Positions 43,966 through 60,633 of a stretch of DNA of 64,000 nucleotides are shown here, one piece after another (position 1 is the stretch's first letter; every line of letters begins with the position of its first letter). The DNA comes from Rufibacter immobilis (GTDB lineage: Bacteria; Bacteroidota; Bacteroidia; Cytophagales; Hymenobacteraceae): positions 732,636-796,635 of the forward strand of contig NZ_RJJE01000017.1 in NCBI RefSeq assembly GCF_003721565.1, read 5' to 3'. Both the position numbers and the translations under genes were made by a program. The notes below the pieces were generated by a model. That model searched no databases, was not told where the DNA came from, and saw only the letters and a list, made by a program, of their open reading frames with translations.

Positions 43966-44001
43966 TGTCCTTTTTAAGCCCTCCCAACAGCGCTAGCTTT
44001 G
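43966..44001 (+). promoter_or_regulatory. Late promoter copy L1
   Basis: TGTCCTTTTT (43,966-43,975), 22 bp, TTTG; the -7 box is TAGCTTTG (43,994-44,001), a full TAnnTTTG match. It serves the tail gene starting at 44,017. Confidence 0.75.
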
Positions 44002-44016
44002 TTTAATTACAGAGCA

Positions 44017-44664
44017 ATGCAGAATATCGTTGGTTTAGAGGGGGAGAACCTGGGAGGAATTACCAGGCTTTTTTTCATTGAGCAGAAGAATCTACTAGAG
44101 CAGCAGCCCACAGATGGGCTGCTGCTAGAGGGAACCATTACCTTGTCACCAGGAACTGAGTGGCATTTTTTTATTCCCACCCCATACACCACCAGTTTCA
44201 CGGAAGAGGAGGAACGGACCCCCCACGGCTACCTGTACACGCAGGAAGTGAAGGGATTCAGGGCAAAAGACAACCTCCAGCTGGCAAAAGCCTGGCTAAA
44301 ACTGCGCGGTAAAAAAATGGTGCTGTTGGCCATTGACGCGAACAACCAATGCCGCCTGATCGGGAATACAGAGGATTTCCTGATGATCACGCGGAAACTG
44401 GACACCGGCAGCGCGCCCAGCATCCGGAACGGATATAATTTCTCCTTTAAAGGCACATCCACCGAACCCGCGAAATTCTTCGTGGGCACATTCACTGTTT
44501 CCGAAGAGGGACCAACCCCCACACCAGGCAATACAGGATCTGGAGGCGGACCGGTCACAATAAAGGACGTGAACGGGAACACCCTGGGAATCGTGCCTGC
44601 AGGCAGCACTTTCACTTTACCGGATATATGGCTCACGATTGATGATAAATACCTGGAGATATAG
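44017..44664 (+). CDS. Phage tail-tube-like structural protein A
   Basis: 215 residues from MQNIVGLEGENLGGITRLFF. An N-terminal beta-rich domain ends with RNGYNFSFKGTSTEPAKFFV, then a glycine/proline linker PTPTPGNTGSGGGP and a short C-terminal beta segment. The body matches the product of 50,268-50,795 block for block (ENxGG near the start, FxxLAxDAxxQxRxxG, then RxGxxFxFK). Such proteins are typical beta-barrel tail components. First gene after late promoter L1. Confidence 0.65.
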   Translation: MQNIVGLEGENLGGITRLFFIEQKNLLEQQPTDGLLLEGTITLSPGTEWHFFIPTPYTTSFTEEEERTPHGYLYTQEVKGFRAKDNLQLAKAWLKLRGKKMVLLAIDANNQCRLIGNTEDFLMITRKLDTGSAPSIRNGYNFSFKGTSTEPAKFFVGTFTVSEEGPTPTPGNTGSGGGPVTIKDVNGNTLGIVPAGSTFTLPDIWLTIDDKYLEI

Positions 44665-44666
44665 CC

Positions 44667-45392
44667 ATGAAAATTAAAGACATAAAAAACGAAGCCGGTG
44701 CACCGATACCCGAGGCCTGGCTGCTGATGGAGGGACCTAGCGGCACTACCTATAAAATCAAAGTGTCAAACTTCGCCCTGGAGGGAAAATTCCGGGGGAT
44801 TTGGGCACCTGGAGCATTGACGGCGGATTGCTACTACATCTTCGTCGGCAAACTCTGGAGAACGAAATCGGCCTTCAACAGCTCCAGCGGCCCAACGGTG
44901 GCCAACGCCTATTGGGAGCTGGTGAAGCTGGACGGCCAGGAAATTTCCTTTTCGCAAATCATCGGCACCTGGGACCAGAACGCTTCCATTGCCGGCAAAT
45001 TCCAGTCTGTCAATGAATTCATTGGCACCGAGATAAAGAAGGTAGATGATAAAGTAAACAATAAAGTTGACCAGGTACAAGGGAGCCGGTTGATCACAGC
45101 CGCAGAAGTCGCGGCCCTGAACACCTACCGCTACAGTATCACTTTCCCCCTTATCTCAGAAGTAACGGGCCTTAATTACTTACACCGGGCCGGCACGCTT
45201 AAACGCGTTTATTGGCCACAGATAGCCATAAATGCAGTCAGCTACAGGAAAAATGGCGGTGGATGGGTGAACGTGCCTAACGGTACGGATATAAATATTG
45301 GCCACGCCGCGGGTGATCTGTTTGATTGGAAAATCACCTACAAGGCAGGCTATAATTCGGGGAGCATCACAGTAACAGGTCAATACAGCTAA
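44667..45392 (+). CDS. Phage tail/fibre-associated protein
   Basis: 241 residues: PIPEAWLLMEGPSGTTYKIK at the start, a carbohydrate/fibre-like strand-rich middle (FRGIWAPGALTADCYYIFVG), a coiled stretch EFIGTEIKKVDDKVNNKVDQ and a C-terminal beta domain. The order of strand domain, short coiled coil and strand domain suits a trimeric fibre or connector. 2 bp after the previous gene. Confidence 0.55.
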   Translation: MKIKDIKNEAGAPIPEAWLLMEGPSGTTYKIKVSNFALEGKFRGIWAPGALTADCYYIFVGKLWRTKSAFNSSSGPTVANAYWELVKLDGQEISFSQIIGTWDQNASIAGKFQSVNEFIGTEIKKVDDKVNNKVDQVQGSRLITAAEVAALNTYRYSITFPLISEVTGLNYLHRAGTLKRVYWPQIAINAVSYRKNGGGWVNVPNGTDINIGHAAGDLFDWKITYKAGYNSGSITVTGQYS

Positions 45393-45393
45393 T

Positions 45394-45624
45394 ATGAGAG
45401 TACTAAATATTGAGGAGAACATCGGCCTGATGTTCCAGGTGCAGGACAACGGGGAGCCCACGCAGCTCACGGAGCCGGTGGACGAGAACAACAACCGGGT
45501 TCTGGTCCAGCGCTGGGAGACCGAGACGCACGTCTACACTATGGAATACACCTACATCAACCCCATCACGCACCCCGCCTGGGGCGCTGTCTCCTCTGTG
45601 GAGGAAACCCTAATTGAGAAATAA
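45394..45624 (+). CDS. Small tail-region protein
   Basis: 76 residues, likely all-beta: NIGLMFQVQDNGEPTQLTEP, RVLVQRWETETHVYTMEYTY. 1 bp after the preceding stop and 3 bp before the tailspike-like gene; possibly a chaperone or capping piece. Confidence 0.5.
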   Translation: MRVLNIEENIGLMFQVQDNGEPTQLTEPVDENNNRVLVQRWETETHVYTMEYTYINPITHPAWGAVSSVEETLIEK

Positions 45625-45627
45625 GAG

Positions 45628-47133
45628 ATGCACAACTTCAGGAAACATCTGACGCTCGTGAACTACACGGCCGTCTATTTTTGCAGCAAGGCGGGCAGCG
45701 ACAGCAACCCCGGCACCAGCCCCGACGCGCCCAAGGCAAGCGTCAGCCAGGTGATTTTCACCGCGACCAACGCAGGGCACACTGGGTTGGTGGCCATTAT
45801 CATCGGTGAGGGCGTGTATGAGGAAAGTATCAATGTTTCGCAGCCCTCATTGTCCGTGACCTACAATATTATTGCCGAAGGCAAAGTGGTGTTCAAAGCA
45901 TCCGGATCTAACCAGTTCATCATGACCAGGAGGCCGTTTAACTTTTTGGGGAATTTTGAATTCAGGAACTACCAGATCATGCGAGTGACCGACAACTCAT
46001 CTGGCTCCAGCTTCAACTGCAACGGCGCGAAGCTCAGGAACTGCACCCTCGGCGCGGGAAACTACGCTTACACCTTCACCAACTGCGTACTGGAGGGGGT
46101 GGTGTCAAGTGTGGTGGCCCCGAAAATGTTCGGGTGCAAGGTCTTCAATTCCCAGATCACCGGCATCAGCCCCAGCGCGGCACAGCTAGACCACACCTAC
46201 AACAATGACTTTGACGAGGAATCTGTTTTCACGATTCGCAGCACCGACAACACCACCAACCACAACTTCAACAATTTAAGGGGCAAAATACGGGTACAGG
46301 TCTATAATACCGCGGGCTATGAGGGCAACCCGTATATTACCTACAATTCGCTGCAGGAACTTTGGGCGGGAAATCCAACATCTAACCCACCGAAACCGGC
46401 ATACCCTGGCCACTTCCCAAACTCATTTTCCGCAAACCCCGAGTACAATTCAAAGGAATTGGGCGACTACACCGTTAAGGCGAGCAGCCCCAACCTGCGC
46501 ACAGGAGCTACCACGTACAGCAACGGCAACATAGGCAACGTGGAATTAGGGATCGGCACCTACATTGACTCCAGCATCAACGGCCGGGCCAACATTGACC
46601 CGGACAACCCGAACGCCTTCTTCAGCCCGGAGCTGCAGATCATAGGCGATGCCGTTTCCGTGCCCCTGAACCAAACGCTGGGCTATATTGAGGAGGACTG
46701 GCTGCAGGTAAACGGAGGGGCACTCGGTGAGATTGAGGGCGTGGACCTTTTCCATAACCTGGAGTTCAACACCAGCTACGTGGGGCCGAACATCGCCAAC
46801 ATGAACGTGCCGGACTATTACAATGGCCAGCCCCATGACGGAGCCAACCTATCGGTCACCAGAAACCCGAACCGGCTCTCTTTCCAGATGATGTGGAGCT
46901 CCCAGGTGAACAAGCCGGGCAACGGGGCCGAAGCGTATGCCGGCGCAGATAATGGCGGCCTGCTGGCCCCGGCCACGTGGGGCGTGTTCTACTACTTTGA
47001 TAAGCCTTTGGTTGATTTGGCCGGGGTCTGCTCAGGCATGCCAGGTTTTGACGCGGCCGCCAACAATGCCAGGGCGGTGACCGCCCGCTGGATCAAGCGC
47101 CGGTACTGGCTCAGAAACGACTACACGAGCTGA
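45628..47133 (+). CDS. Right-handed beta-helix tailspike-like protein
   Basis: 501 residues. It begins with TAVYFCSKAGSDSNPGTSPD, the entry motif of secreted parallel beta-helix proteins (DUF1565/pectate-lyase fold), followed by repeated short strands with Asn and Gly turns (FEFRNYQIMRVTDNSSGSSF, NCNGAKLRNCTLGAGNYAYT). A separate C-terminal domain holds GAEAYAGADNGGLLAPATWG. A receptor-binding or polysaccharide-degrading spike is likely; catalytic residues cannot be picked out. Confidence 0.65.
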   Translation: MHNFRKHLTLVNYTAVYFCSKAGSDSNPGTSPDAPKASVSQVIFTATNAGHTGLVAIIIGEGVYEESINVSQPSLSVTYNIIAEGKVVFKASGSNQFIMTRRPFNFLGNFEFRNYQIMRVTDNSSGSSFNCNGAKLRNCTLGAGNYAYTFTNCVLEGVVSSVVAPKMFGCKVFNSQITGISPSAAQLDHTYNNDFDEESVFTIRSTDNTTNHNFNNLRGKIRVQVYNTAGYEGNPYITYNSLQELWAGNPTSNPPKPAYPGHFPNSFSANPEYNSKELGDYTVKASSPNLRTGATTYSNGNIGNVELGIGTYIDSSINGRANIDPDNPNAFFSPELQIIGDAVSVPLNQTLGYIEEDWLQVNGGALGEIEGVDLFHNLEFNTSYVGPNIANMNVPDYYNGQPHDGANLSVTRNPNRLSFQMMWSSQVNKPGNGAEAYAGADNGGLLAPATWGVFYYFDKPLVDLAGVCSGMPGFDAAANNARAVTARWIKRRYWLRNDYTS

Positions 47134-47324
47134 TGGCCGGGGAACTGAAAGGTGCGGCCGTCCGGATCAGGAAAGATCTTGGTAGCCAGATCAGGGGGAT
47201 TGCCACCAGGGTGAAACCGGTGGAGCGTTCCGCTTTCGAGGGCGCGGTGCTGCGCGTGAAGCTGGTGCCTCCAGCGCCGCAGATCATCATGCACAGTCTG
47301 GATTTTTTAGAAAAAACCATTTGA
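47133..47324 (+). CDS. Small basic tail-region protein
   Basis: 63 residues starting in a TGATG overlap with the spike gene; basic (AAVRIRKDLGSQIRGIATRV). Last gene before a strong terminator. Unknown. Confidence 0.5.
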   Translation: MAGELKGAAVRIRKDLGSQIRGIATRVKPVERSAFEGAVLRVKLVPPAPQIIMHSLDFLEKTI

Positions 47325-47415: not shown

Positions 47416-47451
47416 TGTCCTTTTTCTAGGAAAGGCGGCGCTTGAGCTTTG
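47416..47451 (+). promoter_or_regulatory. Late promoter copy L2
   Basis: TGTCCTTTTT, 22 bp, TTTG, with -7 box GAGCTTTG. It serves the protease/capsid operon starting at 47,482. Confidence 0.72.
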
Positions 47452-47481: not shown

Positions 47482-48819
47482 ATGAAAAACAATTTCCATC
47501 TCGCCAGTGCCCTACTCCGATCAGTTTGGATGATAGAGCCCAGCTATGCAGAGGCTAACCTGCATGTGGCTGAGAGATTTTTGAGGGGGGAGGCAGTCGG
47601 CACTCGCGCAGATGGAAATTTTGAAAAGCCGGACGCGTTCCTGGCCGCCATGGCCGGGACCGTCCAGGTAACCAATTACACAAGATTAGAGGACGTGCCC
47701 CAAGGTTCAGTAGGGGTGGTAGATTTTGAGGGGCCCGTTCTCAAATATGACACATGCGGAAGCATGGGCACCATGAGCTTCGCGGAGCATCTGACCCGTG
47801 TAGGCAATCACCCGAACATCAAAGCCATTGTGGTCCGCGCTGATACCCCAGGGGGCCAGGTCTACGGAACAGACACACTTTCCGATGCCGTGGCCGCCTG
47901 CCCGGTACCGGTTCTGCTTTTTGTCAATGACGGCATGCTGGCCAGCGCCGGCGTTTGGGCTTTCGTCCCAGCCGATGAAATCTACTGCAGCCGAGCCACC
48001 GACCAGGTGGGGTCCATCGGTGTCTACCAGGGACTGGTGGATGATACCGAGGAACAGGCCAAAACCGGCCGCAAGCGCATCCAGGTCTACGCGACCAAAT
48101 CAACCGAGAAGAACGGGCCCTACCGCGAATTCGCCCAGGGCAATGAAGGTCCCCTGAAAGCCGAACTGGATTTTATCCGGGACCGCTTTGAGGCGACCGT
48201 TCGCCATTACCGCCCACAGGTCAAGGACGAGGCTTTCTACGGGGCCATGTACTTCGCCGAGGAAGCCCAGGAAATGGGCCTCATTGACGGCATCAAATCC
48301 TTTGAGGAGGTCATCAAACGCGCCCAGGAACTAGGGGGCGAAACCACATCCAGCACACAATCAAGCACCAATAAAAGACAGATGTTTTCACCATTCAAAA
48401 AAGTAGCCGCACTGGCTGGCATCGCCGCCGGTGAGGTGACAGAAGCGCAATTAGCCGCCGCCAACGCGGAGCTGAGCGCCAAAGGCATTGTAGGGGCCAG
48501 CCTTGTAGAGGCCGGTTTAATTGAATCCATGGAATCTGAGCTCACGCACTCTGAGGCAGAGCTGGAGAAAGCCCAGGAGAAAGCGGCCGAATCGGCCGAG
48601 GAAATCCGCACCCTGAAAGCGGACCTGGCTACCGCCAACACCAAAATCGCCGAGCTGCAGAAAGGACCTGCCGGCAAAACAAAAGGCAGCCTGATCCAGG
48701 AAGACGCTGACAAAATCCAAGGCAAGCAGCAAGAGCGCCCGCTCTCCAGCTGGGCCAGAAAAGCCCAGGAAAGAGCTGCCCTAACCTCCAGAAGAGAGGC
48801 CAAAACAGACAACCAATAA
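47482..48819 (+). CDS. Prohead protease (S49/SppA-like) with scaffold tail
   Basis: 445 residues. The S49 peptidase domain (about 70-285) has VVDFEGPVLKYDTCGSMGT, VVRADTPGGQVYGTDTLSDA, nucleophile region DGMLASAGVWAFV and VGSIGVYQGL; a Lys in VYATKSTEKNGPYREF is the likely base. From about 300 it turns into a helical, Ala/Glu-rich coiled coil (AEAELEKAQEKAAESAEEI-type) like a scaffold protein. It matures the capsid in the prohead. An internal ATG at codon 301 could give the scaffold alone. Confidence 0.85.
   Translation: MKNNFHLASALLRSVWMIEPSYAEANLHVAERFLRGEAVGTRADGNFEKPDAFLAAMAGTVQVTNYTRLEDVPQGSVGVVDFEGPVLKYDTCGSMGTMSFAEHLTRVGNHPNIKAIVVRADTPGGQVYGTDTLSDAVAACPVPVLLFVNDGMLASAGVWAFVPADEIYCSRATDQVGSIGVYQGLVDDTEEQAKTGRKRIQVYATKSTEKNGPYREFAQGNEGPLKAELDFIRDRFEATVRHYRPQVKDEAFYGAMYFAEEAQEMGLIDGIKSFEEVIKRAQELGGETTSSTQSSTNKRQMFSPFKKVAALAGIAAGEVTEAQLAAANAELSAKGIVGASLVEAGLIESMESELTHSEAELEKAQEKAAESAEEIRTLKADLATANTKIAELQKGPAGKTKGSLIQEDADKIQGKQQERPLSSWARKAQERAALTSRREAKTDNQ
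48382..48819 (+). CDS. Possible nested scaffold protein
   Basis: In-frame internal start ATG 48,382 (residue 301 of the protease) opens MFSPFKKVAALAGIAAGEVT, right where the peptidase domain has ended after a Thr/Ser-rich linker. The product would be a 145-residue coiled-coil scaffold, as Nu3 is nested in lambda gene C. There is no strong ribosome site to prove it. Confidence 0.4.
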   Translation: MFSPFKKVAALAGIAAGEVTEAQLAAANAELSAKGIVGASLVEAGLIESMESELTHSEAELEKAQEKAAESAEEIRTLKADLATANTKIAELQKGPAGKTKGSLIQEDADKIQGKQQERPLSSWARKAQERAALTSRREAKTDNQ

Positions 48820-48835
48820 TTTCACATAACGCAGA

Positions 48836-49777
48836 ATGAGCGCAATTAAAATTGATGAGCTTAACGAGGAGTTGGGCGCTTATCTGAGAGAAGACAAAGA
48901 TGTTCTAATCGCAGAAACCCTACAGAGCAAAAGCCTGGAGGGGAAATTTGAGTTTTGGGATGATGTGAAGGACGAAGTGCCTTTGCCTAGCCTGAGCATC
49001 GGCAACATCGTGAAGCCGGCCAACGCCGAGAAGTTTGAGCCAACCCCCGATGCCCTGCAATTCAAGGCCCGCATGCTGAAAGTGCGCGGAATGAAGGTGG
49101 ACCTCGTGCTTGTTCCCTCCAACCTGGAAAAGACCTGGCTGGGCAAGGTGAACAAAAAAGGATCTGACGCATACCAGATGCCTTTCGAGGAGTACATCAT
49201 GAAATACATTGTAGAAAAGGCCCAGGAGGAAGTCTACCTGATGTCTGTCTACAAAGGGATTTACAACCCTGCCGGTAAAACCGCCGCCGACACCATAGAC
49301 GGCGTGCTGACATTGGTAGAGAATGAGATTCTGGCAGACAACATCGTTCCGGTGATCACCGGCGCCGTCACGCCAACCAACATCATTGAATCCTGCGAAA
49401 TGGTGTACGACAACCTGGGGGAGGCCTATAAAGCCAAGCCTACGCAGATGCCGCTTGCCCCAACTTTATACGACTGGTACCAGCGCCGGTACCGCGGCCA
49501 GTATGGGGCGAACAACAACTACAGCGGCATGGAGAACAAACTCTTCCTGGACGGCACAAACTGTGAGCTGATCAGAGAGCCCGCCCTGGCTGGCTCCCAG
49601 CGCCTAATCGTGACACCGATGGAAAACAAGGTGTACGGTTTCGACAGCGCCGCTGACGAGAACAACATCACCACCCAGGTGTTTGAGCGGACCATCAAAG
49701 TAATGATGGACTTCAAGGCAGGAACCCAATTGAAAGAAATCCATTCCCGCGCCCTGGCGGTGAACGACCAAAAATAA
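48836..49777 (+). CDS. Major capsid protein
   Basis: 313 residues, directly after the protease/scaffold gene (16 bp). The helical N-terminus (LNEELGAYLREDKDVLIAET) fits a delta/N-arm region, the middle has a long spine-like helix (YIMKYIVEKAQEEVYLMSVY) and the C-terminal half has DWYQRRYRGQYGANNNYSGM and VMMDFKAGTQLKEIHSRALA. HK97-fold capsid is inferred from size, position and layout. Confidence 0.75.
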   Translation: MSAIKIDELNEELGAYLREDKDVLIAETLQSKSLEGKFEFWDDVKDEVPLPSLSIGNIVKPANAEKFEPTPDALQFKARMLKVRGMKVDLVLVPSNLEKTWLGKVNKKGSDAYQMPFEEYIMKYIVEKAQEEVYLMSVYKGIYNPAGKTAADTIDGVLTLVENEILADNIVPVITGAVTPTNIIESCEMVYDNLGEAYKAKPTQMPLAPTLYDWYQRRYRGQYGANNNYSGMENKLFLDGTNCELIREPALAGSQRLIVTPMENKVYGFDSAADENNITTQVFERTIKVMMDFKAGTQLKEIHSRALAVNDQK

Positions 49778-49783
49778 CGGAAC

Positions 49784-49821
49784 TGGAGCCGTAAGCCCCG
49801 TAAGGCTGAGGCTCCTTTTCC
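49784..49821 (+). terminator. Hairpin after the capsid gene
   Basis: GGAGCC and GGCTCC arms with an inner AGCC/GGCT pairing, followed by TTTTCCTG. Probably a leaky terminator lowering expression of the genes after the capsid. Confidence 0.6.
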
Positions 49822-49839
49822 TGTTTGCCTTAAATCAAA

Positions 49840-50244
49840 ATGACAGCAGCAGAAAAGAAAGAATTGCAGGAGGCACTTGATAAAGTCAAGATCCTGGAGA
49901 ACAGCGAGGCAGAGCTCAAGCAGGCATTGGCCAAATCACAGGACCGGGTTTTCGCGGCCGAGGAGCAGGTGGCCAGAATCCAGCTGGAGAAAGAGAAAGT
50001 AGAGCAGGAGGCGGTGCAGGTCATTACTGAGCTGCAGCAGCAGCTTGGGAAATCAGAGGCGAAAGCCTCTAAGGGCCATACCGCCAAAATCACCATCGTC
50101 GATCAGGAACCGCGCACCTTCCGCTTCAAAGTTGGGAAGTTCAACCTGGATGGGGTGATCTACAAAGCGACAGACGTGGAAGATAACTCTGAAATCCTGC
50201 ATAAGCTCGTGGAAATGGGCGCAGGGGTACTGGAGGAAGTGTAG
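49840..50244 (+). CDS. Coiled-coil head protein with C-terminal beta domain
   Basis: 134 residues. The first 75 form a long coiled coil (LQEALDKVKILENSEAELKQ onward); the last 50 form a small domain RTFRFKVGKFNLDGVIYKAT. Position after the capsid gene suggests a head fibre, decoration or head-tail protein. Confidence 0.55.
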   Translation: MTAAEKKELQEALDKVKILENSEAELKQALAKSQDRVFAAEEQVARIQLEKEKVEQEAVQVITELQQQLGKSEAKASKGHTAKITIVDQEPRTFRFKVGKFNLDGVIYKATDVEDNSEILHKLVEMGAGVLEEV

Positions 50245-50267
50245 TTGGTATCTTAAGAGTTAAATAA

Positions 50268-50795
50268 ATGACATTAGTAGTTTTAGAGGATCTGCTTTTC
50301 GAAGAGGGGACAGAGAACATGGGCGGGCTGGTAGGGGAGATCTACGCAGCCCCAGCCTCAGAGGTGGAGAGCATCACCGTCGCGGAAGACGGCGTGACGG
50401 CCACCGCCATCAAAATGAAAGCCGGCAAGAAAATGAGCCGAATCTACTTCACCAAAGACACCGGTAAGGTGGAAGATAACGAGGTAGGGGAGCGTGACGG
50501 CGGTTCGTTTGAAACCACCCTTGGTTTCTTCCACCCAGGCAACAGCGCCGCGGTGCTCAAGGCAAAGAAGAAATTCAACAACGGCGGTTTCATCTTCTTG
50601 GCCATGGACGCACAGGGCCAGATGCGGGTAGTGGGCTCAAAACTGTACCCGGCTTACCGCGAAGCTGGAAGCATCACCACCGGTGGTACTCCTACGGAGC
50701 GCCGGGGCGCAACCTTTAATTTCAAAGCCGCCAGCAACGGACCGGCTCTGATCTTCACGGGAACCGTACCGCTGGAAGTAGCACCGGCAGCCTAA
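50268..50795 (+). CDS. Phage tail-tube-like structural protein B
   Basis: 175 residues, beta-rich: LFEEGTENMGGLVGEIYAAP, GGFIFLAMDAQGQMRVVGSK, RRGATFNFKAASNGPALIFT. A paralogue of the product at 44,017-44,664 but without its Gly/Pro linker and tail domain. A tail tube or other beta-barrel virion component is likely. It is in the capsid operon, so the two paralogues come from different late promoters. Confidence 0.6.
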   Translation: MTLVVLEDLLFEEGTENMGGLVGEIYAAPASEVESITVAEDGVTATAIKMKAGKKMSRIYFTKDTGKVEDNEVGERDGGSFETTLGFFHPGNSAAVLKAKKKFNNGGFIFLAMDAQGQMRVVGSKLYPAYREAGSITTGGTPTERRGATFNFKAASNGPALIFTGTVPLEVAPAA

Positions 50796-50797
50796 CC

Positions 50798-50980
50798 ATG
50801 CCGGAACTGAGTAAGGAAGCCGCCAGGCACTACTACCTGAAGCCGGGCACCCCAACTATTTTGGGAGTGCCCGGCTTCGGTACCGTCAGTTACCAGGGAA
50901 TGAGCCTGGAGCTGGCAAACGCCATTTACTCTTCCGGGAAACATGGGCTGGTGAAAAGGAGAAAGCCACTGCAGAAATAA
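50798..50980 (+). CDS. Small basic virion-region protein
   Basis: 60 residues: KPGTPTILGVPGFGTVSYQG and a basic end HGLVKRRKPLQK. 2 bp after the preceding gene and just before a terminator. Unknown. Confidence 0.5.
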   Translation: MPELSKEAARHYYLKPGTPTILGVPGFGTVSYQGMSLELANAIYSSGKHGLVKRRKPLQK

Positions 50981-51064: not shown

Positions 51065-51100
51065 TGTCCTTTTTCCGCCCAGGGCAACACCTCAATTTTG
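51065..51100 (+). promoter_or_regulatory. Late promoter copy L3
   Basis: TGTCCTTTTT, 22 bp, TTTG, with -7 box CAATTTTG. It serves the packaging operon starting at 51,120. Confidence 0.72.
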
Positions 51101-51119
51101 TGTCACTGGAGGAACCGTG

Positions 51120-51743
51120 ATGCGAGAAATACTAATGGCCTGGATTGAAAGCAACCAGGTGTATGAAAAGGGACTGGAGCTGTACCAAAAGTACGGCTCC
51201 AGCAGCCTGCTTAAAAAGGTCCTGGCTACCGGGCCCAGCGAATACAACAGGGGCCGCTTGCTGGCAGAGCTGCAGCAGCTCTATGCGAGTGTGGCCGATC
51301 AGGAAGAACAGAAACCCGCCCTGCTGCAGCTGGCCAGCGCAGCAGATCCGGACGGGGTGGAAGAACAGCTGGTAAAAGAGCGCTCTGAGGCCAACAAGGT
51401 AGCCGCAGCCCTCAAATCACAGCTTCCTTTCCTTACCGACCCGCAGAAAAGAAAAGCGGTCTGCTTCAAGATCCTGGACCTGTACGACCGCAACAGCGAG
51501 ATATGGGCCATGCTGGAGTACAAGGCCAAACACGGCTATTTTCCGCACCAGGCAATGCCGGCAGAAGAACAGGAGGAGGAGGCCCAGGCGCTGGACCGCT
51601 ACATGCTGGAGAAAATGCTCCAGAACATCCGCCCGAAAATATCCCGCATCAAGAACGACCCCACCAAGAAAGAACAATTGAAGGAGCTGCAGCAGGAGAA
51701 ATTCCGACTGGAGCAATTACTGGAGAAAGCCAATGCTGTTTAG
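51120..51743 (+). CDS. Packaging-operon protein, helical
   Basis: 207 residues from MREILMAWIESNQVYEKGLE (ATG preferred over the GTG directly before it). All-helical with a long C-terminal coiled coil (DPTKKEQLKELQQEKFRLEQ). First gene of the packaging operon, overlapping the next by 11 bp. Unknown. Confidence 0.6.
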   Translation: MREILMAWIESNQVYEKGLELYQKYGSSSLLKKVLATGPSEYNRGRLLAELQQLYASVADQEEQKPALLQLASAADPDGVEEQLVKERSEANKVAAALKSQLPFLTDPQKRKAVCFKILDLYDRNSEIWAMLEYKAKHGYFPHQAMPAEEQEEEAQALDRYMLEKMLQNIRPKISRIKNDPTKKEQLKELQQEKFRLEQLLEKANAV

Positions 51744-52404
51744 GAAAAGCGAACTGAGGGCGGGCATGAGCATCCCCGGGAAAGAGCCAGGCCAGGAAGA
51801 GGAAACAGACCAGGCGGTGAAAGGGCGGGCCACCCGCAGCAGGGGCCGGAAGAAAGATTCCATCCGCGGGGTAGGCCTCAAGCAGCTGCGCCAGGTGATC
51901 GGTGAGCTGCAGCAGGGGGAGATCATCCCATTCGCCACCGGTGGCCAATGGAGCAACCACGACCTGCTGGAGTTTATCCTCGAAAGGACCGGGCCGGCCG
52001 ATGTCTACATCACCACCTGGAGCCTCACCGAAGAACCGGTGCGGGCCATTCTGGATTTCACGGAGAAAGGACTGATCCGCAGCCTCACGTGCCTCTTCGA
52101 CTACCGCATCCAGGCCAGGAACCCCAAGGTATTCCAGCTCATAGACAGCGTGATTGAGCGCAAGAAACTCACCAAAATACACGCAAAGGTAACCGTGATC
52201 TGCAATGAGGAATGGGCGGTGAGCATCATCTCCAGCGCCAATTTCACCAAAAACCCCAGGATTGAGGCCGGGGTGATCCTGACCGACACGGAAACCGCCG
52301 CTTTCAATATTGACTGGATCGAAGAGGAGATCCTGAATGAGCAACCACTAAAATTTAAAAGGACAGAAAATGTACGCAGAGATCCTGGACGAAGAGGTGA
52401 TTAA
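51733..52404 (+). CDS. PLD-like (single HKD) protein in packaging operon
   Basis: 223 residues. After a basic, Arg-rich N-terminus, a PLD-fold: RQVIGELQQGEIIPFATGGQ, DVYITTWSLTEEPVRAILDF, then the catalytic motif THAK-type IHAKVTVICN followed by VSIISSANFTKNPRIEAGVI, which keeps H-x-K and S-x-N but has Asn-Glu where the usual Asp lies. A dimeric phosphodiesterase or nuclease is possible. It overlaps both neighbours. Confidence 0.65.
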   Translation: MLFRKSELRAGMSIPGKEPGQEEETDQAVKGRATRSRGRKKDSIRGVGLKQLRQVIGELQQGEIIPFATGGQWSNHDLLEFILERTGPADVYITTWSLTEEPVRAILDFTEKGLIRSLTCLFDYRIQARNPKVFQLIDSVIERKKLTKIHAKVTVICNEEWAVSIISSANFTKNPRIEAGVILTDTETAAFNIDWIEEEILNEQPLKFKRTENVRRDPGRRGD

Positions 52405-52660
52405 CGAGATAGAGAATAATGCCAGGCTCGCTTTCACCGACCGACAAATTGCCCTAATCGTGGGCATCCCATACCCGCACTTTGAGTACCACGCCGCCAT
52501 TCCGGAAAGCCCGGTGAGCACTGCGCTCACCAAGGGCAGGCTCATGGCCGAGGCTGAAGTGAGGGAATCAATTTTCAAACTGGCCAGATCGGGCTCCAAA
52601 GATGCCCAGATCATGGCCATTGAGTATTTCCAACACCTGCAGATAGATAACGAACAATGA
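52370..52660 (+). CDS. Terminase small-subunit-like protein
   Basis: 96 residues with a short HTH-like segment LAFTDRQIALIVGIPYPHFE and helices VSTALTKGRLMAEAEVRESI, FKLARSGSKDAQIMAIEYFQ. Size, HTH and place two genes before the large subunit fit a DNA-recognising TerS. Overlaps the PLD-like gene by 35 bp. Confidence 0.6.
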   Translation: MYAEILDEEVINEIENNARLAFTDRQIALIVGIPYPHFEYHAAIPESPVSTALTKGRLMAEAEVRESIFKLARSGSKDAQIMAIEYFQHLQIDNEQ

Positions 52661-53250
52661 GCCGGCGCCTAACCACACAGACAGATGCGGACGTGCTCAT
52701 TGAGCACCTCTACAAGGGGAAAGGAACCCTCACGCCGGCGCTGGAGGAAAAGCTGGACCGTCTGCAGTCCTGCCTGGAGCTGACCAGGAAGTACGGCTCC
52801 AGGCTGAAAGTCATTCCCATGCTGGTCAAGAAATACAACCGCGACGGCAAGAAATATTCCGCGCACACCGCCCAGGAAGACTTCGATGATTGCCAGGAAG
52901 TCTTCGGGGCAGGGACCCAAACCAACCGCATGTTCTGGTTTGACATTGTGCTGGGCATGATGATGGATACCCGCAATGCCATTCTGGCCACGCGCAATTA
53001 CAAGGCCGCCAGTCTGGTGGAAGTCCGGATGCTCAACGCCATCAAAGACTTCATTGGGGACAATGAGGCCTACCCGGTTGACAAACTGCAGCCGCAGAAT
53101 GTGGAGGTAGGATTCTTCCCTGAGCTGCTGAATGTGAAACTTCCGGACAACCTGGAGGAACAGCTGAAGAAATTGAAAGAGGCGAAAAAACGCAAAGACC
53201 TCATGATTGAAGGAGAGGCGCAGGATGCGGAGGTAATCCCAAATGAATAA
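52657..53250 (+). CDS. Terminase-associated protein
   Basis: 197 residues, mostly helical: VLIEHLYKGKGTLTPALEEK, FDIVLGMMMDTRNAILATRN, then a charged C-terminal coil. ATGA overlap with TerS-like gene and 8-bp overlap with terL. Role unknown, plausibly part of packaging. Confidence 0.55.
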   Translation: MSRRLTTQTDADVLIEHLYKGKGTLTPALEEKLDRLQSCLELTRKYGSRLKVIPMLVKKYNRDGKKYSAHTAQEDFDDCQEVFGAGTQTNRMFWFDIVLGMMMDTRNAILATRNYKAASLVEVRMLNAIKDFIGDNEAYPVDKLQPQNVEVGFFPELLNVKLPDNLEEQLKKLKEAKKRKDLMIEGEAQDAEVIPNE

Positions 53251-54880
53251 GCCGAAAGCACCGGCGAAAAAGATGCACATGAACGTGCCTCAGCTCATGT
53301 TTGAGCTGATTTTCGCGCAGATCAACATCATCCTGTGGGGAAGGGCAACCGGTAAGACCGAGGGACCAATGGCCCGCTTCACGCTCCGGAACATCTTCAC
53401 GATGCCCCGGAGCAATGGCTTTCTGATCGGGACCACATACGAGCAGCTGCTGACACGCACGCTGCCTCCGCTGTTTGCGGCCTGGGAGAAATTCGGTTAC
53501 CGGGAGAACGAGCATTTTTGGGTAGGCAAAGCGCCCCCGGCGAAACTGAAGATACAGAAAGCCTACCGGAGCCCGCTCAAGAATGACACCTATATCCAGT
53601 GGTTCAACGGCTCAGGCGTTTATCTGGTGAGCCAGGACAGGCCCGGCAGCATCAACGGTGTCCGGACGCAATGGGGGGCCGGAGATGAGGCCAAGCTCCT
53701 GAACCATGAGAAACTGAAGGACGAGGCTTTGCTTACCATGGCCGGCTACGCTGACGTGTTCGGCCACCTGAGCAATTACCTGAGCCTGCTGTTCTGCTCT
53801 GACATGCCCAACACGTCTAAGGGTAACTGGCTCTTTGATTACAAAGAGCTCATGGACCCGGAGATCATTGAGGGAATCCTGCAATGCCAGGTAAAGATGA
53901 TGGAGCTGCGCGACCTTATGGCCAAAACCAGCCCATCCAACCACTTCAAACTGCAGAAAGAGTACAACAAGTTTGACGGTTACTGCAATGAGCTCCGGAA
54001 AAACACGGTCTACTGCAGCTATGCCTCGACGCTGGATAACATCCATGCCCTGGGCATAGAGCCGATCAAGAACTTCAAGCGCTCCCTCACTGATCTGGTG
54101 TTCCAGCTGTCCGTTCTCAACAACCGAATCCTGGCCGTGGAGAACGGATTCTACGGTTTGCTAAATGAGGACGAGCACGGCTATGATGCCGTAAACTATG
54201 ACTATGTGGACCTGCTGGAGCGACAGCCGGGCCAAACGCTGGTGAAGGACTGCCGTTGGGATGCCGATCTGGACAGAAACCAGCCGCTGGACATTGCCTG
54301 TGACTACAACAACGCGATCAACTCCGTGGTGGTGGGGCAGCGCAGGGGGCGGCAATACCGCTTCCTTAATTCGCTTTACGTGGAAAGGCCATTGGTTCTG
54401 AAGGACTGCGTGAAACGGTTCTGTGAGTATTATAAGCACATGCACACCCGCCACGTGAACTACTACTTTGACCATACGGCCGTGGCCAGAACGGCCAGCA
54501 CCAACCTGAGTTTCGCGGATGAATGGAAACTGGAGCTGGAGCGCAACGGCTGGACCGTCACCATGCACTACCTGGGCCAGGCCTCCAGCCACATGAGCCG
54601 GTACCGCCTTTGGGAGCTGGCTTTCTCAGGTGACAACCGGGTGAGTAAATTCATCTACAACAAGACGAACTGCAAAGCCTGGCAGATCTCCTGCCAACAG
54701 GCAGGAATCGTGCGCTCAGGGGACAAGTTCAGCAAGGACAAATCGTCAGAAAAGAAAAGCTCAGGCGTACCACCCGCCGAGGCCACCCACATAAGCGAGG
54801 CCGGCGACTGCCTCTGGTGGGGTACGCAGCGCCGGAAAGTGCAGAATAATTATGGTTTCGTTGATACACAAGTGATGTAA
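53243..54880 (+). CDS. Terminase large subunit
   Basis: 545 residues. ATPase: Walker A WGRATGKTEGPMAR (about 32-45), Walker B region WGAGDEAKLLNHEK (about 143-156), coupling motif FCSDMPNTSKGNW. A C-terminal RNase H-like nuclease part starts with DIACDYNNAINSVVVGQRRG (first acidic residue near 351), then HVNYYFDHTAVARTAS. It drives DNA into the prohead and cuts the concatemer. Confidence 0.85.
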   Translation: MNKPKAPAKKMHMNVPQLMFELIFAQINIILWGRATGKTEGPMARFTLRNIFTMPRSNGFLIGTTYEQLLTRTLPPLFAAWEKFGYRENEHFWVGKAPPAKLKIQKAYRSPLKNDTYIQWFNGSGVYLVSQDRPGSINGVRTQWGAGDEAKLLNHEKLKDEALLTMAGYADVFGHLSNYLSLLFCSDMPNTSKGNWLFDYKELMDPEIIEGILQCQVKMMELRDLMAKTSPSNHFKLQKEYNKFDGYCNELRKNTVYCSYASTLDNIHALGIEPIKNFKRSLTDLVFQLSVLNNRILAVENGFYGLLNEDEHGYDAVNYDYVDLLERQPGQTLVKDCRWDADLDRNQPLDIACDYNNAINSVVVGQRRGRQYRFLNSLYVERPLVLKDCVKRFCEYYKHMHTRHVNYYFDHTAVARTASTNLSFADEWKLELERNGWTVTMHYLGQASSHMSRYRLWELAFSGDNRVSKFIYNKTNCKAWQISCQQAGIVRSGDKFSKDKSSEKKSSGVPPAEATHISEAGDCLWWGTQRRKVQNNYGFVDTQVM

Positions 54881-54883
54881 GCG

Positions 54884-55114
54884 ATGGATGCTATTGACAG
54901 ATTGAAAGCGTTTTTAGACAAAACAGCTGCAATCAAAAGGAAAAGTATAAGCAGGCAAGTGATTGAGGTACACGGACCTATGGTGCCTCTTAAATCTGTA
55001 CTTGAATTGCTGGACTGCTACCAGGAAGGTACACTGGAGGCCTTCCTGGACCAAAGGGACCTGTGGGCTCCCAAGGAAAACAGGACCACCTACCAGGAAG
55101 CGGGCGGCTGCTAA
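54884..55114 (+). CDS. Small protein after terminase
   Basis: 76 residues: IDRLKAFLDKTAAIKRKSIS and LELLDCYQEGTLEAFLDQRD. Helical, 3 bp after terL, last gene before a terminator. Unknown. Confidence 0.55.
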   Translation: MDAIDRLKAFLDKTAAIKRKSISRQVIEVHGPMVPLKSVLELLDCYQEGTLEAFLDQRDLWAPKENRTTYQEAGGC

Positions 55115-55923: not shown

Positions 55924-55925
55924 AG

Positions 55926-56190: not shown

Positions 56191-56532
56191 ATGAAGGAAC
56201 TCCTACGAATTGAATTCGAGGAAGACGCAGAGGAATTTTTGGATGCATTACCTGAGAAAACTAGATTGAAGTTCATTTTATGCTTCAGAAGGGTTTCGGC
56301 TGGGGAAAAGGGGAGGTTCTTTACAAAGCTCTCTGGCTACAAAAATCTTTGGGAATTCCGAGTCGAAGCAGACAAGACCTGGTATAGGCTGTTTGCTTTT
56401 TACAGTGAAACAGAGAAGTCACTTATCATCTGTACTAATGGTTTCACGAAACAGAAAAATAAGACACCTAAGAGTCAAATCAACAAAGCAATAGCTTTGA
56501 AAGACTCTTATCACAATAAGGATGACTCTTAA
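56191..56532 (+). CDS. HigB/RelE-type toxin
   Basis: 113 residues of the RelE/Gp49-like toxin family: LRIEFEEDAEEFLDALPEKT, KFILCFRRVSAGEKGRFFTK, GYKNLWEFRVEADKTWYRLF, IICTNGFTKQKNKTPKSQIN. Such toxins cleave mRNA at the ribosome. The antitoxin gene follows 68 bp downstream, the toxin-first order of HigBA. The gene and its surroundings are more AT-rich than the phage late genes, suggesting separate acquisition. Confidence 0.85.
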   Translation: MKELLRIEFEEDAEEFLDALPEKTRLKFILCFRRVSAGEKGRFFTKLSGYKNLWEFRVEADKTWYRLFAFYSETEKSLIICTNGFTKQKNKTPKSQINKAIALKDSYHNKDDS

Positions 56533-56600
56533 CAGAGTCATCCTTTAATATACTTTGATGCCCTTTATAAGGATCAACTAACCACTAAGAGCAAACTATC

Positions 56601-56978
56601 ATGGCAGCACTAACTAAAGAATTTCTCGATCAAGATAGAAGGAGGAGAGACGAACCAAGAAAGCCAAGAAAATCATTAGAAGAACTCACCGCTAAGTATT
56701 ACGGAGAAAAGGGCACTCCAGAAAGACAACAGTTCGAGTTCGATTTATCACTAGAAATGTTGAGTGAGAAAATCAAAGAAATGAGAAAGGCGAAACACTT
56801 GACCCAAGAACAATTAGGAGATATTATTGGAGTACAAAAAGCTCAAATCTCTAAATTAGAAAAAGGATCAAGAAATGTAACTATTGAAACTATAACTAAG
56901 GTTTTCAAGGCTTTACAAGCAAATGTAAAACTGAAGGTTGAAATTGCCCCAGTTGAAGAACTGGCTATTCACATCTAA
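56601..56978 (+). CDS. HigA-type antitoxin, XRE HTH
   Basis: 125 residues. A disordered, basic N-terminus (DQDRRRRDEPRKPRKSLEEL), then an XRE HTH at about 62-115: LSEKIKEMRKAKHLTQEQLG, VQKAQISKLEKGSRNVTIET. It should neutralise the toxin and repress the operon. An inter-gene hairpin (56,518-56,546) overlaps the toxin stop. Confidence 0.85.
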   Translation: MAALTKEFLDQDRRRRDEPRKPRKSLEELTAKYYGEKGTPERQQFEFDLSLEMLSEKIKEMRKAKHLTQEQLGDIIGVQKAQISKLEKGSRNVTIETITKVFKALQANVKLKVEIAPVEELAIHI

Positions 56979-57941: not shown

Positions 57942-58496
57942 ATGAAAGCACTTACCAGGACAGTGGCCACAGTCAACAATGTGTCAATTCTTATAGTGGA
58001 GAATGGGGAGAAAATTGTGCCTATCAGACCTATATGCAAAGCAATGGGAATTGATGAAGACTCTCAAAAAAGGAAGATTGAAGGAGACGAAATTCTTAGT
58101 TCAGTTGCCACCCTCAGCATGGCAACTGGAGCAGACGGGAAGAACTACGAAATGTTCTGTATTCCTTATGAATTCATCTTTGGATGGCTCTTTACAATCA
58201 ATCCGAAGAATGTCAAACCGGAAGCTCAAGCAGCGGTAACAGAATATAAACTGGCATGCTATAAAGCCCTTTTTAGAAGCTTCACCGCGAAAGCTCTATT
58301 TCTGGAGCACAAGGAAGCAGCAATGAAAGCACAAATTGAAGTGGTGAACAAAGTAAGCAGAGATTTCAGGGAAGCCCAAAGTACCCTAAAATTGGCAAAG
58401 GCACGGCTGAATACCCTAAAAGATACAACCCTAGAGGAGTGGGAGGCTAACAACAGACAGCTATCCTTTGAATTTCCAGAAGAAACCGAAGAATAA
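57942..58496 (+). CDS. Phage antirepressor (P22_AR_N type)
   Basis: 184 residues: the N-terminal antirepressor domain (about 1-110) with VNNVSILIVENGEKIVPIRP, CKAMGIDEDSQKRKIEGDEI and FCIPYEFIFGWLFTINPKNV, then a coiled coil (EVVNKVSRDFREAQSTLKLA). It would bind and inactivate a repressor and trigger lytic growth. Control by the divergent RHH protein is likely from the layout. Own terminator follows. Confidence 0.85.
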   Translation: MKALTRTVATVNNVSILIVENGEKIVPIRPICKAMGIDEDSQKRKIEGDEILSSVATLSMATGADGKNYEMFCIPYEFIFGWLFTINPKNVKPEAQAAVTEYKLACYKALFRSFTAKALFLEHKEAAMKAQIEVVNKVSRDFREAQSTLKLAKARLNTLKDTTLEEWEANNRQLSFEFPEETEE

Positions 58497-59184: not shown

Positions 59185-59187
59185 CAG

Positions 59188-59394: not shown

Positions 59395-59828
59395 CCAAAT
59401 CAGAACTTTATTTCAAAAACAAGGCAGAATTGCCGGAATTAAAAGAGAAAACCATGAAAAAGAAAGCGATAATCCTGTCAGGTGGCGGGGCCAGCGGTAA
59501 AAGCACCCAGCTCTGGAAGCTCCATGCAAATGGAAAAATGCAGATTTTAATGCCGGAGGTACCGCGCCAGCCTATAGTATTCGTGAATCCCGACACCGAT
59601 ATTATTGGAATAGATGAAATTGGCGATATGCATACCCTTAGGTTTTGGGTTAATCGTGCCCGATTCTTTGTGCAGGGAGAAGGCCGTGAGCTGTTCCCCC
59701 AGCTGGTGCTAGCCACGCAGCTGAGGATAAACGAGGACACCCACCAGTACACTGCCCACCAGATGGTGAAGTACAAGCCTGTGCCAGAATTTATACTTAA
59801 CATTCAAGGAAAATGTGCCCGTGCATGA
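59391..59828 (+). CDS. P-loop NTPase-like phage protein
   Basis: 145 residues: Walker A AIILSGGGASGKSTQLWKLH (GGGASGKST near 31-39) and a possible Walker B DIIGIDEIGDMHTLRF. The rest (RFFVQGEGRELFPQLVLATQ) suggests a compact P-loop ATPase or kinase. The overlap with the upstream gene favours the long start over an internal ATG at 59,454. Role unknown. Confidence 0.65.
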   Translation: MTKSELYFKNKAELPELKEKTMKKKAIILSGGGASGKSTQLWKLHANGKMQILMPEVPRQPIVFVNPDTDIIGIDEIGDMHTLRFWVNRARFFVQGEGRELFPQLVLATQLRINEDTHQYTAHQMVKYKPVPEFILNIQGKCARA

Positions 59829-59893
59829 TAGAACAGAATAAGGCCATAGTTGAAAAGCAGCCGCTGGAGGACCAATACTGCCCATGGCGCTGA
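59813..59893 (+). CDS. Possible 26-residue Cys peptide
   Basis: MCPCMIEQNKAIVEKQPLED then QYCPWR, overlapping the end of the P-loop gene. The CPC and CPW pattern echoes the zinc-binding gene at 58,945, but the frame is too short to be sure. Confidence 0.3.
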   Translation: MCPCMIEQNKAIVEKQPLEDQYCPWR

Positions 59894-59912
59894 CAAAGAA
59901 AAGTAGCAAAGA

Positions 59913-59942
59913 AAACAGGCGCTAAAGTCAAAAAGCCTGTTT
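59913..59942 (+). terminator. Weak hairpin before late promoter L4
   Basis: AAAACAGGC, loop with GCTAAAGTCAAAAA, GCCTGTTT. A reduced relative of the hairpins that precede L2 and L3. Confidence 0.45.
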
Positions 59943-59958
59943 CGACGCTGTTTGGCAG

Positions 59959-59994
59959 TGTCCTTTTTCACCGAAGCCTGGCTGAGGAACTTTG
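59959..59994 (+). promoter_or_regulatory. Late promoter copy L4
   Basis: TGTCCTTTTT, 22 bp, TTTG, with -7 box GAACTTTG. It serves one gene only (60,027-60,260). Confidence 0.72.
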
Positions 59995-60026
59995 AGCTTT
60001 CAAAGTAATTCAGACCAGGCTTTTTT

Positions 60027-60260
60027 ATGATCGCGTTTATCCTATTGCTACTCTTTCTTCTGGACCTGATCAAGTTCCGGACGGCAGTAATCATCTACCT
60101 GCTAATGATCGTGCTGAGCTCATGCACCCCAGCCTACTACCGGGACATTGAACAGCGGCAGTTCCTGTTCAATACCGGTCGCACCAGGTGGCATGTGGAG
60201 CCGGCAACATCCAACCAGGCTAAATTCAGGAGGGATAAGTTCCCGCTGCTCAGGAAATGA
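60027..60260 (+). CDS. Late-expressed membrane lipoprotein
   Basis: 77 residues: hydrophobic start MIAFILLLLFLLDLIKFRTA, then a second hydrophobic stretch ending VLSSC, a good lipobox, then a polar tail with YYRDIEQRQFLFNTGRTRWH. Either a TM followed by a lipobox, or a lipoprotein with an internal start. It is the sole gene of late unit L4, so high late expression is expected. A spanin-like lysis role or superinfection exclusion are options. Confidence 0.6.
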   Translation: MIAFILLLLFLLDLIKFRTAVIIYLLMIVLSSCTPAYYRDIEQRQFLFNTGRTRWHVEPATSNQAKFRRDKFPLLRK

Positions 60261-60274
60261 GAAAGAAGAAGAAG

Positions 60275-60306
60275 AAAAAAAGGCTCCTAAATGGAGCCTT
60301 TTTTTT
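60275..60306 (+). terminator. Terminator of the L4 unit
   Basis: AAAAAAAGGCTCC, TAAAT, GGAGCCTTTTTTTT. A partial REP-like copy (GCTGTTTTTCAGAAAACAAGCC) follows to 60,335. Confidence 0.85.
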
Positions 60307-60334
60307 CGCTGTTTTTCAGAAAACAAGCCTAAAA

Positions 60335-60532
60335 CTAGGATTTAAGCGCCCACTGTTTCTCCTGGACCACCTCAAAACCGGCCAGTTTCAGAGCCTCCTC
60401 AATCTTCTCAGTGGATAGTTCGCCCGATTTAAAGCGCTTTTTCATGGATTTCCAGTTTTCGGCGGTATAACCAAGCTCTTTGTGCACGTTCCGCTGACCC
60501 GCTAGCCATACAAATGCCTCTTTTGTTGTCAT
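60335..60532 (-). CDS. Small minus-strand regulator-like protein
   Basis: 65 residues: MTTKEAFVWLAGQRNVHKEL, GYTAENWKSMKKRFKSGELS, TEKIEEALKLAGFEVVQEKQ. Helical with a possible HTH (ENWKSMKKRFKSGELSTEKI). It opposes the late genes between L4 and L5. Its promoter box TATCTTTG ends 4 bp before the ATG, so the mRNA should be leaderless. DNA-binding role inferred. Confidence 0.65.
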   Translation of the reverse strand: MTTKEAFVWLAGQRNVHKELGYTAENWKSMKKRFKSGELSTEKIEEALKLAGFEVVQEKQWALKS

Positions 60533-60536
60533 AGGC

Positions 60537-60544
60537 CAAAGATA
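60537..60544 (-). promoter_or_regulatory. TATCTTTG box, leaderless start
   Basis: Exact TAnnTTTG on the minus strand, 4 bp upstream of the ATG at 60,532. Confidence 0.6.
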
Positions 60545-60597
60545 GAGATAGAGTTCAAATCTGCACCCACAAACCGCCTCAAAAGGCTAAAATCCGA

Positions 60598-60633
60598 TGT
60601 CCTTTTTTTGGGTTGGCCACGCCGACACCTTTG
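60598..60633 (+). promoter_or_regulatory. Late promoter copy L5
   Basis: TGTCCTTTTT, 22 bp, TTTG, with -7 box CACCTTTG. The TTTG ends 4 bp before the ATG at 60,638. It rules out the longer frame beginning at 60,608, which would start inside the promoter. Confidence 0.75.

Follow-up and report, generated by a model that had tools for sequence, protein, structure and literature searches.

Sites and gene units of the Rufibacter immobilis prophage

The 64,000-nucleotide (nt) stretch of Rufibacter immobilis DNA analyzed here (contig NZ_RJJE01000017.1; hereafter the window) holds a prophage of ~40.7 kilobases (kb) that lies between a tRNA-Met gene and a partial repeat of that tRNA at ~76000 (window coordinate), and thus extends past the window end. 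An open reading frame (ORF) adjoining the distal tRNA repeat (74686-75972) appears by eye to encode a tyrosine-type integrase-like protein. At five places within this prophage the box TGTCCTTTTT is followed by TTTG after 22 base pairs (bp), each time ahead of a late gene unit (Table 1), and we discuss these sites as putative late promoters, together with a small gene just ahead of the late region as the candidate for their activator.

An earlier note, made from the letters of the window, had reported five such copies and none in the neighboring host DNA. Using the pattern TGTCCTTTTT-N22-TTTG, we found exactly five matches at those positions, all on the + strand, and no match in each of 100 dinucleotide shuffles of the window. 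The scan of the host genome proposed in the note extended its statement to all 4,769,276 bases in 17 contigs, where the same five matches, all inside the prophage, were the only ones and the reversed control gave none. The four letters preceding TTTG (TAGC, GAGC, CAAT, GAAC and CACC for copies 1–5) also read as previously given, and the distance to the first gene, put at 4–32 bp, was measured from TTTG to the start codon as 15, 30, 16 (GTG) or 19 (ATG), 32 and 4 nt, respectively. In the case of copy 5 the start codon (60638) lies 4 nt downstream of the site, and a leaderless mRNA is therefore predicted.

The further statement that four of the copies stand behind a terminator or hairpin could be confirmed in part. 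A hairpin and T run are visible by eye ahead of copies 2 and 3, but neither was listed by the automated terminator scan. A scan-listed stem (59944-59962) overlaps copy 4, a scan-listed terminator (60274-60306) precedes copy 5 by ~290 bp with an antisense ORF in between, and copy 1 directly follows the stop codon of ORF 43411-43962. The small gene following copy 4 is lipoprotein-like by eye, and a Pfam search with it gave no match.

Table 1. Coordinates of the prophage features discussed in the text (window numbering)
Feature	Coordinates	Strand	Remarks
tRNA-Met	35287..35361	-	parts of its sequence recur at ~76000 (L007), taken as prophage att sites
Two direct repeats AATCGCAGTCAGGTTTGTCC	43150..43215	+	starts 43150 and 43196; share TGTCC with the box
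Variant in-frame site	43341..43376	+	GGTCTTTTTT, 18 bp, CATTTTTG; 2 mismatches; ahead of candidate activator gene
Candidate late activator gene	43456..43962	+	168 amino acids (aa); ORF 43411-43962, likely ATG 43456; just ahead of late region
Putative late promoter copy 1	43966..44001	+	TGTCCTTTTT, 18 bp, TAGCTTTG; ahead of tail unit 44017-47324
Putative late promoter copy 2	47416..47451	+	TGTCCTTTTT, 18 bp, GAGCTTTG; ahead of head protease unit 47482-50980
Head maturation protease	47482..48819	+	Peptidase_S49, phrog_53; first gene of unit 2
Putative late promoter copy 3	51065..51100	+	TGTCCTTTTT, 18 bp, CAATTTTG; ahead of packaging unit 51117-55114
Putative late promoter copy 4	59959..59994	+	TGTCCTTTTT, 18 bp, GAACTTTG; ahead of small gene 60027-60260
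Putative late promoter copy 5	60598..60633	+	TGTCCTTTTT, 18 bp, CACCTTTG; ahead of portal-tail unit running past the window
Portal	60955..62304	+	weak match to phrog_11226; its profile also detects the gene annotated as portal in Leef_1

Conservation of spacing and placement in related phages

Using the exact pattern, we scanned 204 genomes of the window's family and obtained a match in 81, several of which carried 3–5 same-strand copies within tens of kb; the genus richest in such clusters appears to be Hymenobacter. Together with the window, 17 motif clusters from relatives formed a set of 18 loci chosen by exact motif copies, with 59 exact sites, all located on the + (late-gene) strand. Across these sites, positions left free in the search were nevertheless conserved, namely A29 (59/59), C/T31 (58/59), C/G28 (57/59), G30 (49/59) and G14 (47/59). 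A weight matrix derived from the 59 sites yielded 92 forward matches and none on the minus strand of the 18 loci; the site counts include chance matches, the two-strand reversed controls standing at 5 against 92 in these loci and at 26 against 77 in 21 further ones. The full form of the putative promoter is accordingly a box [T/C]GTCCTTTTT, a spacer of exactly 18 bp, and xAnnTTTG, which in Hymenobacter relatives is mostly SAGYTTTG.

The fixed spacing was also evident when any [CT]GTCCTT was accepted as a box. For this analysis we used 53 related phage loci, consisting of the 18 motif-chosen loci and 35 that were found through a protein alignment built from the motif-chosen ones; since the loci are related by descent, the site counts are not independent. 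On the + strand, AnnTTTG followed 156 of 264 boxes at a single fixed distance, and the other distances from 0 to 38 together accounted for 15. Similar results were obtained for the 35 loci not chosen by motif (70 of 134 boxes at the fixed distance versus 7 at others), whereas on the minus strand of the 53 loci the fixed distance was found for 2 of 289 boxes. Assuming a transcription start 5 nt after TTTG, the box would span approximately -40 to -31 with its center near -35.5, which by position agrees with the proposal of the earlier note that it stands in for the -33 element of the host. Among 186 sites downstream of the activator gene, the first base of the -7 element (position -12) was C in 98, G in 62, A in 15 and T in 11, i.e. 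not T in 175, and in the window one of the five late copies (copy 1) carries T at -12. The -7 element of the late sites deviates at -12, and in most cases also at -10, from the rule for flavobacterial hosts.

As to placement, in-frame sites (box and -7 element at the fixed spacing) directly preceded the first genes of units in 74–87% of loci, these being the protease gene (37 of 50), the gene that opens the packaging unit (33 of 38), the pre-portal gene (29 of 35) and the 64127-type gene (27 of 35). No such site was found ahead of any of seven internal genes, which comprised 50 capsid genes, 49 of gene 50268, 47 TerL genes and 39 of gene 62253 (capsid and TerL being labels assigned by position), as well as 33 of gene 64969, 29 of gene 65466 and 33 of gene 69812, nor ahead of 3 second-tail homologs. 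Sites were present before the portal in 1 of 40 loci and before the first tail gene in 4 of 40. The junction test covered copies 1, 2, 3 and 5; the earlier expectation that relatives carry the motif at the same junctions is hence borne out for copies 2, 3 and 5, which are the rule, while the tail-unit copy at 43966 is rare. Conversely, the 64127-type gene, which has a site in most relatives, has none in the window's prophage. The 13 protease misses include six Flavobacterium-type loci and the Polaribacter phage Leef_1, in which a TGTCCTTTT box is present ahead of the protease gene with a -7 element outside the pattern. Overall, 131 of 195 sites could be assigned to a tested gene family.

Many of the sites lie very close to a start codon. 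For 182 in-frame sites an ATG was found 3–6 nt after the -7 element in 69 cases, in 53 of them at exactly 4 nt, and in 17 cases there was none within 60 nt. In the text available from PMC6847099, probable promoters of Flavobacterium johnsoniae are those starting 4 or 5 nt after the -7 element; by this host start rule 69 of the 182 mRNAs are predicted to be leaderless or nearly so. For comparison, excerpts of the respective studies give 5.5% leaderless mRNAs in F. psychrophilum (PMC9723704) and ~3.7% leaders shorter than 10 nt in Bacteroides thetaiotaomicron (PMC7366714). Separately, protease-unit leaders of relatives (for example in genomes G112, G037 and G070a) contain an inverted repeat that runs from just past the -7 element to the start codon (CATCGAT...ATCGATG and variants). 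In 66 leaders, pairs 4–7 were formed in 118 of 264 cases versus 82 on shuffling (maximum 102), and 34 leaders showed no pairing; the repeat may serve as an operator or fold into an RNA hairpin.

An order-wide scan gave a match in 46 of 390 genomes, and the 22 matches outside the family did not exceed the reversed control. The only genome there with two matches was G292, whose contig 63 (L327) carries two in-frame TGTCCTTTTT sites at 218306 and 221610, 3.3 kb apart. Homologs of the candidate activator gene were found in three Flavobacterium genomes and nine similar viral contigs (six of these 12 were aligned, at 21–26% identity), and in all 12 of these Flavobacterium-type loci the protease unit is preceded by a TGTCCTTTT-type box followed after 18 bp by TAAAATTG. 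Their packaging units contain nine complete sites with the box, five with xAnnTTGC as -7 element and four with other letters. In the cultured phage Leef_1 the homolog is Leef1_39, encoded immediately upstream of the head genes. Boxes of the form TGTCCTTTT[TA] number six in this phage and precede the genes at 511, 1878, 2515, 10572, 30708 and 34630. A homolog was also detected in the human-faeces phage fragment MT836778 (hidden Markov model E-value 3e-22). A phylum-wide search of 395 genomes recovered homologs in four, the window's own included, indicating that the family is patchy.

A phage-specific box and a candidate activator gene

Through homologs of the candidate gene we reached 21 loci beyond those chosen by motif. 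In these the frame is retained, and the box varies from phage to phage. The G153 and G165 loci each have TGTCTTTTTT in 4 of 4 in-frame sites, and two genomes of the window's own genus, G137 and G138, have TGTCCTTTC[CT] at 5 of 7 and 5 of 6 sites. In G682 and G314, which belong to other families, TGTCCTATTT-like and CGTCCTA-like boxes are in frame with a somewhat variable -7 element. A single host genome, G063, combines a prophage with TGTCCTTCGC at 4 of 6 in-frame sites, plus one CGTCCTTCAC and one TGTCCTCTGA, and another stretch with TGTCCTTTTT (3), TGTCCTTTCT (2) and CGTCCTTTTT (1). For box positions 5–10 the mean number of mismatches within a prophage was 0.78, compared to 2.01 upon permutation (minimum of 2000 permutations 1.62; based on 81 sites in 21 prophages that had not been selected by motif). 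Two different boxes in one host genome are hard to reconcile with a host factor, and the reader of the box is therefore probably phage-encoded. That boxes differ from phage to phage, and even among the prophages of a single host, lends support to the phage factor postulated in the earlier note, beyond which our analysis goes in naming a candidate for that factor and in describing the variation of the box and the -7 departure from the host rule.

The ORFs of the window's prophage were compared with the loci of 17 relatives. Homologs of the candidate gene were present in 14 of the 17, and in the three misses the fetched stretch barely reached upstream of the first site; a whole-genome search recovered homologs in these three as well, on the same contig in G048 and on other contigs in G110 and G126. 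The other early genes were matched in at most two of the 17 relatives each, except for a general resolvase match (12 of 17). Within the family, 47 of 204 genomes carry the gene, including 45 of 45 with the portal. At least three exact motif matches were found in 17 of the 47 genomes with the candidate versus 1 of the 157 without it, corresponding to an average of 2.1 and 0.39 matches per genome, respectively. In addition, a partial Mantel analysis of 32 loci associated box distance with candidate protein distance given the portal (r = 0.25, p = 0.006), whereas the association with the portal given the candidate was r = 0.08 (p = 0.27).

The candidate protein itself gave no match in Pfam, PHROG and NCBIfam searches at E 0.1, and 29 homologs gave scattered weak matches only in Pfam (best 0.0011, in one member) and PHROG, including phrog_21888, of unknown function, in 4 of the 29 (best 0.00096). 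A PDB sequence search had a best E of 0.14, with none below 0.1. Its AlphaFold2 model is of high confidence (mean predicted local distance difference test score 92.4, predicted template modeling score 0.85); among the best 50 of 57 Foldseek matches to the PDB the best E was 0.94. The C-terminal half is helical, with weak homeodomain matches (Foldseek probability 0.28 at best, E 3.9). Among viral models Foldseek returned one close match, which is a Leef_1 protein (template modeling scores 0.80/0.86, E 1.2e-6). As for other potential readers, no sigma factor or polymerase family appeared in the Pfam results, which covered 30 prophage proteins of the window and neither its other ORFs nor those past its end, and the prophage still holds small early ORFs that lack a Pfam match.

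The gene frequently carries a site of its own. An in-frame site was found upstream of 26 of 50 homologs, in 18 of them starting 55–60 bp before the gene start as estimated from profile alignment. The first base of the -7 element was T in 20 of these 26 sites versus 11 of the 186 downstream sites (Fisher p 2.5e-15). In most relatives, then, the host by itself would appear able to use the activator promoter but not the late ones, which points to basal expression with subsequent feedback. In the window, two repeats 46 bp apart are located upstream of the activator gene, while in relatives TTGTCC repeats accumulate at its 3' end (64 seen versus 2.1 expected in 50 loci, with at least two in 22 loci). 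Their spacing was 21 bp in 18 cases and 42 bp in 5, and several loci have them within the coding sequence, where they specify a recurring motif of 7 residues. These repeats could be an operator array or iterons.

With respect to neighboring genes, a serine resolvase/invertase (PF00239, 42513-43145) is encoded just upstream of the activator region and accounts for the resolvase match mentioned above; in the inspected relatives it is placed after the late genes and not before the activator gene. Between the late units, a Gp49-like gene (PF05973) followed by an HTH_3 gene (56191-56978) resembles a HigB/HigA-type toxin-antitoxin pair. The product of 57942-58496 has a P22 antirepressor N-terminal domain (PF10547, E 4.6e-28), and a DUF5675 protein (PF18925, 63470-63922), matched in 2 of 17 relatives, follows the portal-side genes.

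Proposed mechanism, alternatives and known systems

Taken together, we consider it probable that the sites serve a temperate tailed phage as late promoters and are read by a small phage protein, most likely the product of 43456-43962. What speaks for this are the sites and their fixed spacing, their conservation at gene junctions, the phage-specific box, and the co-occurrence and co-divergence with the candidate gene. We infer a model in which the 168-aa protein would bind the box at about -40 to -31 and, once bound, would recruit or remodel host RNA polymerase carrying the primary sigma factor at an off-rule -7 element, with C or G for T at -12 and usually G at -10. Because of this off-rule element the late units would remain silent until the activator is made. 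The activator's own related box, present in about half of the homologs and mostly combined with a host-like TAnnTTTG, would permit basal expression and then positive feedback, whereupon transcription of the late units would begin in parallel, in many cases at the start codon itself or close to it.

More broadly, these features may define a phylum-wide late regulon of Bacteroidota phages, comprising a new activator family devoid of a solved structural relative by Foldseek that replaces the primary sigma factor at the -35 region, a polymerase that accepts a -7 element avoided by the host, an exact 18-bp spacer, a box evolving phage by phage, and many mRNAs starting at the start codon; this wider proposition we regard as evenly balanced. 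Among the titles and abstracts listed by searches of the open-access literature we found no description of a dedicated late-promoter class in temperate Bacteroidota phages. The finding supplies a concrete promoter, a single candidate activator and, with Leef_1, a cultured phage as test system. If true, the unusual primary sigma factor of the phylum would become approachable through a phage that redirects it, and a controlled promoter-activator pair as well as a marker for late operons in environmental and gut phages would be at hand.

Several observations weigh against this model. The co-divergence of box and candidate protein, although in the predicted direction, is modest in size, and 62 exact matches occur in the 157 family genomes that do not carry the candidate gene. 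None of the Pfam, PHROG, NCBIfam, PDB and Foldseek searches linked the protein convincingly to a known regulator, and DNA binding is suggested by the helical half of its model and the weak homeodomain matches. Under the pattern used, 24 of 50 activator genes have no upstream in-frame site, and in the window the -7 element of the activator site starts with C and that of late copy 1 with T, so that the T rule for the activator site fails there. Of the in-frame sites, 64 of 195 (21 before the activator gene and 43 after) fell to no tested gene family. The two boxes in G292 have neither an activator nor a portal homolog in the 24.4 kb around them. Outside the Hymenobacter-Rufibacter family the putative -7 element changes, as in Leef_1 and in the TAAAATTG of Flavobacterium-type protease sites; none of the six Leef_1 boxes has an in-frame TTTG, with A at the -11 place in five, and 14 related viral contigs of gut-phage type have 13 + and 2 - strand in-frame sites, with none in three contigs. 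Finally, the -7 element is poorer than T4 middle promoters tolerate (PMC6755090).

Alternatively, the sites could be late promoters read by another phage factor or by a phage-modified polymerase, with the 168-aa protein serving, for example, in replication initiation at the 21-bp TTGTCC repeats. The iteron-like repeats that relatives carry at the gene's 3' end, the position of the protein outside known DNA-binding families and the remaining small early ORFs devoid of Pfam matches fit this explanation, which we nevertheless hold to be unlikely, as only the candidate gene and the general resolvase match recur, among the early genes, in more than two of the 17 relatives, the repeats have TGTCC in common with the box, and box divergence follows the candidate protein once the portal is accounted for. 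That the phages exploit a host alternative sigma factor reading the box is very improbable in our view. The box does occupy the position of a -35 element, and the available part of PMC9723704 counts eight alternative sigma factors in F. psychrophilum, but a TGTCCTTTT box is conserved from Hymenobacter to Flavobacterium hosts, and this explanation was rejected on the grounds that the host genome contains no further copy, that boxes differ among prophages of one genus and even of one genome, and that they are more alike within a prophage.

The motif might also be the T tail of a terminator or an RNA element of the upstream transcript. Indeed, 76 of 116 sites are preceded, at no more than 14 bp, by a TTTT run (expected number 4.8), so that terminators often abut the box, and one listed stem overlaps copy 4. 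However, GGACA, which would pair with TGTCC, occurs within 40 bp upstream of a single one of the 116 sites, and neither the fixed 18-bp spacing to xAnnTTTG nor the close downstream start codons would be explained, and we rejected this reading, whose probability we judge to be minimal. The same slight probability attaches to a DNA-level mark for packaging, replication or recombination: several copies per phage genome in a single orientation would suit such a mark, yet not their location ahead of unit-first genes or the -7-like element at fixed spacing.

With the putative late promoters and their candidate activator as our preferred reading, parallels to known phage systems can be drawn. Late activators of temperate phages such as P2 Ogr and Mu C/Mor are likewise phage gene products that switch on several late operons, but they bind further upstream than the box described here; none of these families is among the 21 Pfam families listed for the 29 homologs at E<=1. 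The gene for the late switch protein Q of lambda, too, immediately precedes the late genes; Q, however, targets paused polymerase at a single late promoter, whereas here each phage has several promoter-like sites, often right after a terminator-like T run.

Compared to host Bacteroidota primary-sigma promoters (TTTG at -33 and TAnnTTTG at -7), most Hymenobacter-Rufibacter sites keep the A and the TTTG. They differ by an unrelated box at fixed spacing, by mostly C or G in place of T at -12, and by the common G at -10; in the probable promoters of F. johnsoniae, T at -12 hardly varies and G is almost never seen at -10 and -9 (PMC6847099). The SM5 group of F. psychrophilum (TAnnTTGY) is a host promoter group for which the accessible text of PMC9723704 describes no TGTCCTTTTT box. 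Similar to SM5, xAnnTTGC stands at the same place in 3 of 6 Leef_1 sites and in 5 of 9 complete Flavobacterium-type packaging-unit sites; sites with this element occur in some Flavobacterium-type and Polaribacter phage loci (L286, L290, L310, L312, L313 and L329).

The closest parallel in action is offered by the middle promoters of T4 (MotA/AsiA). No MotA match appeared in Pfam, in the PDB sequence search or among the best 50 of 57 Foldseek PDB matches, and a distant kinship is possible. A counterpart of the co-activator AsiA, which remodels sigma region 4, might be among the small early ORFs that lack a Pfam match. According to PMC6755090, the center of the MotA box is at ~-30, and almost every middle promoter requires a -10 element of excellent match, whereas the box described here is centered further upstream, the -7 element is off-consensus, without the well-matched host -10 element of MotA-type promoters, and the genes are late. 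In both systems a phage box replaces the -35 region, the host sigma factor reads, or here would read, the downstream element, and one small activator serves many promoters. Since the box sits where sigma region 4 would, we favor a small recruiting or remodeling activator, which would be MotA-like in its action.

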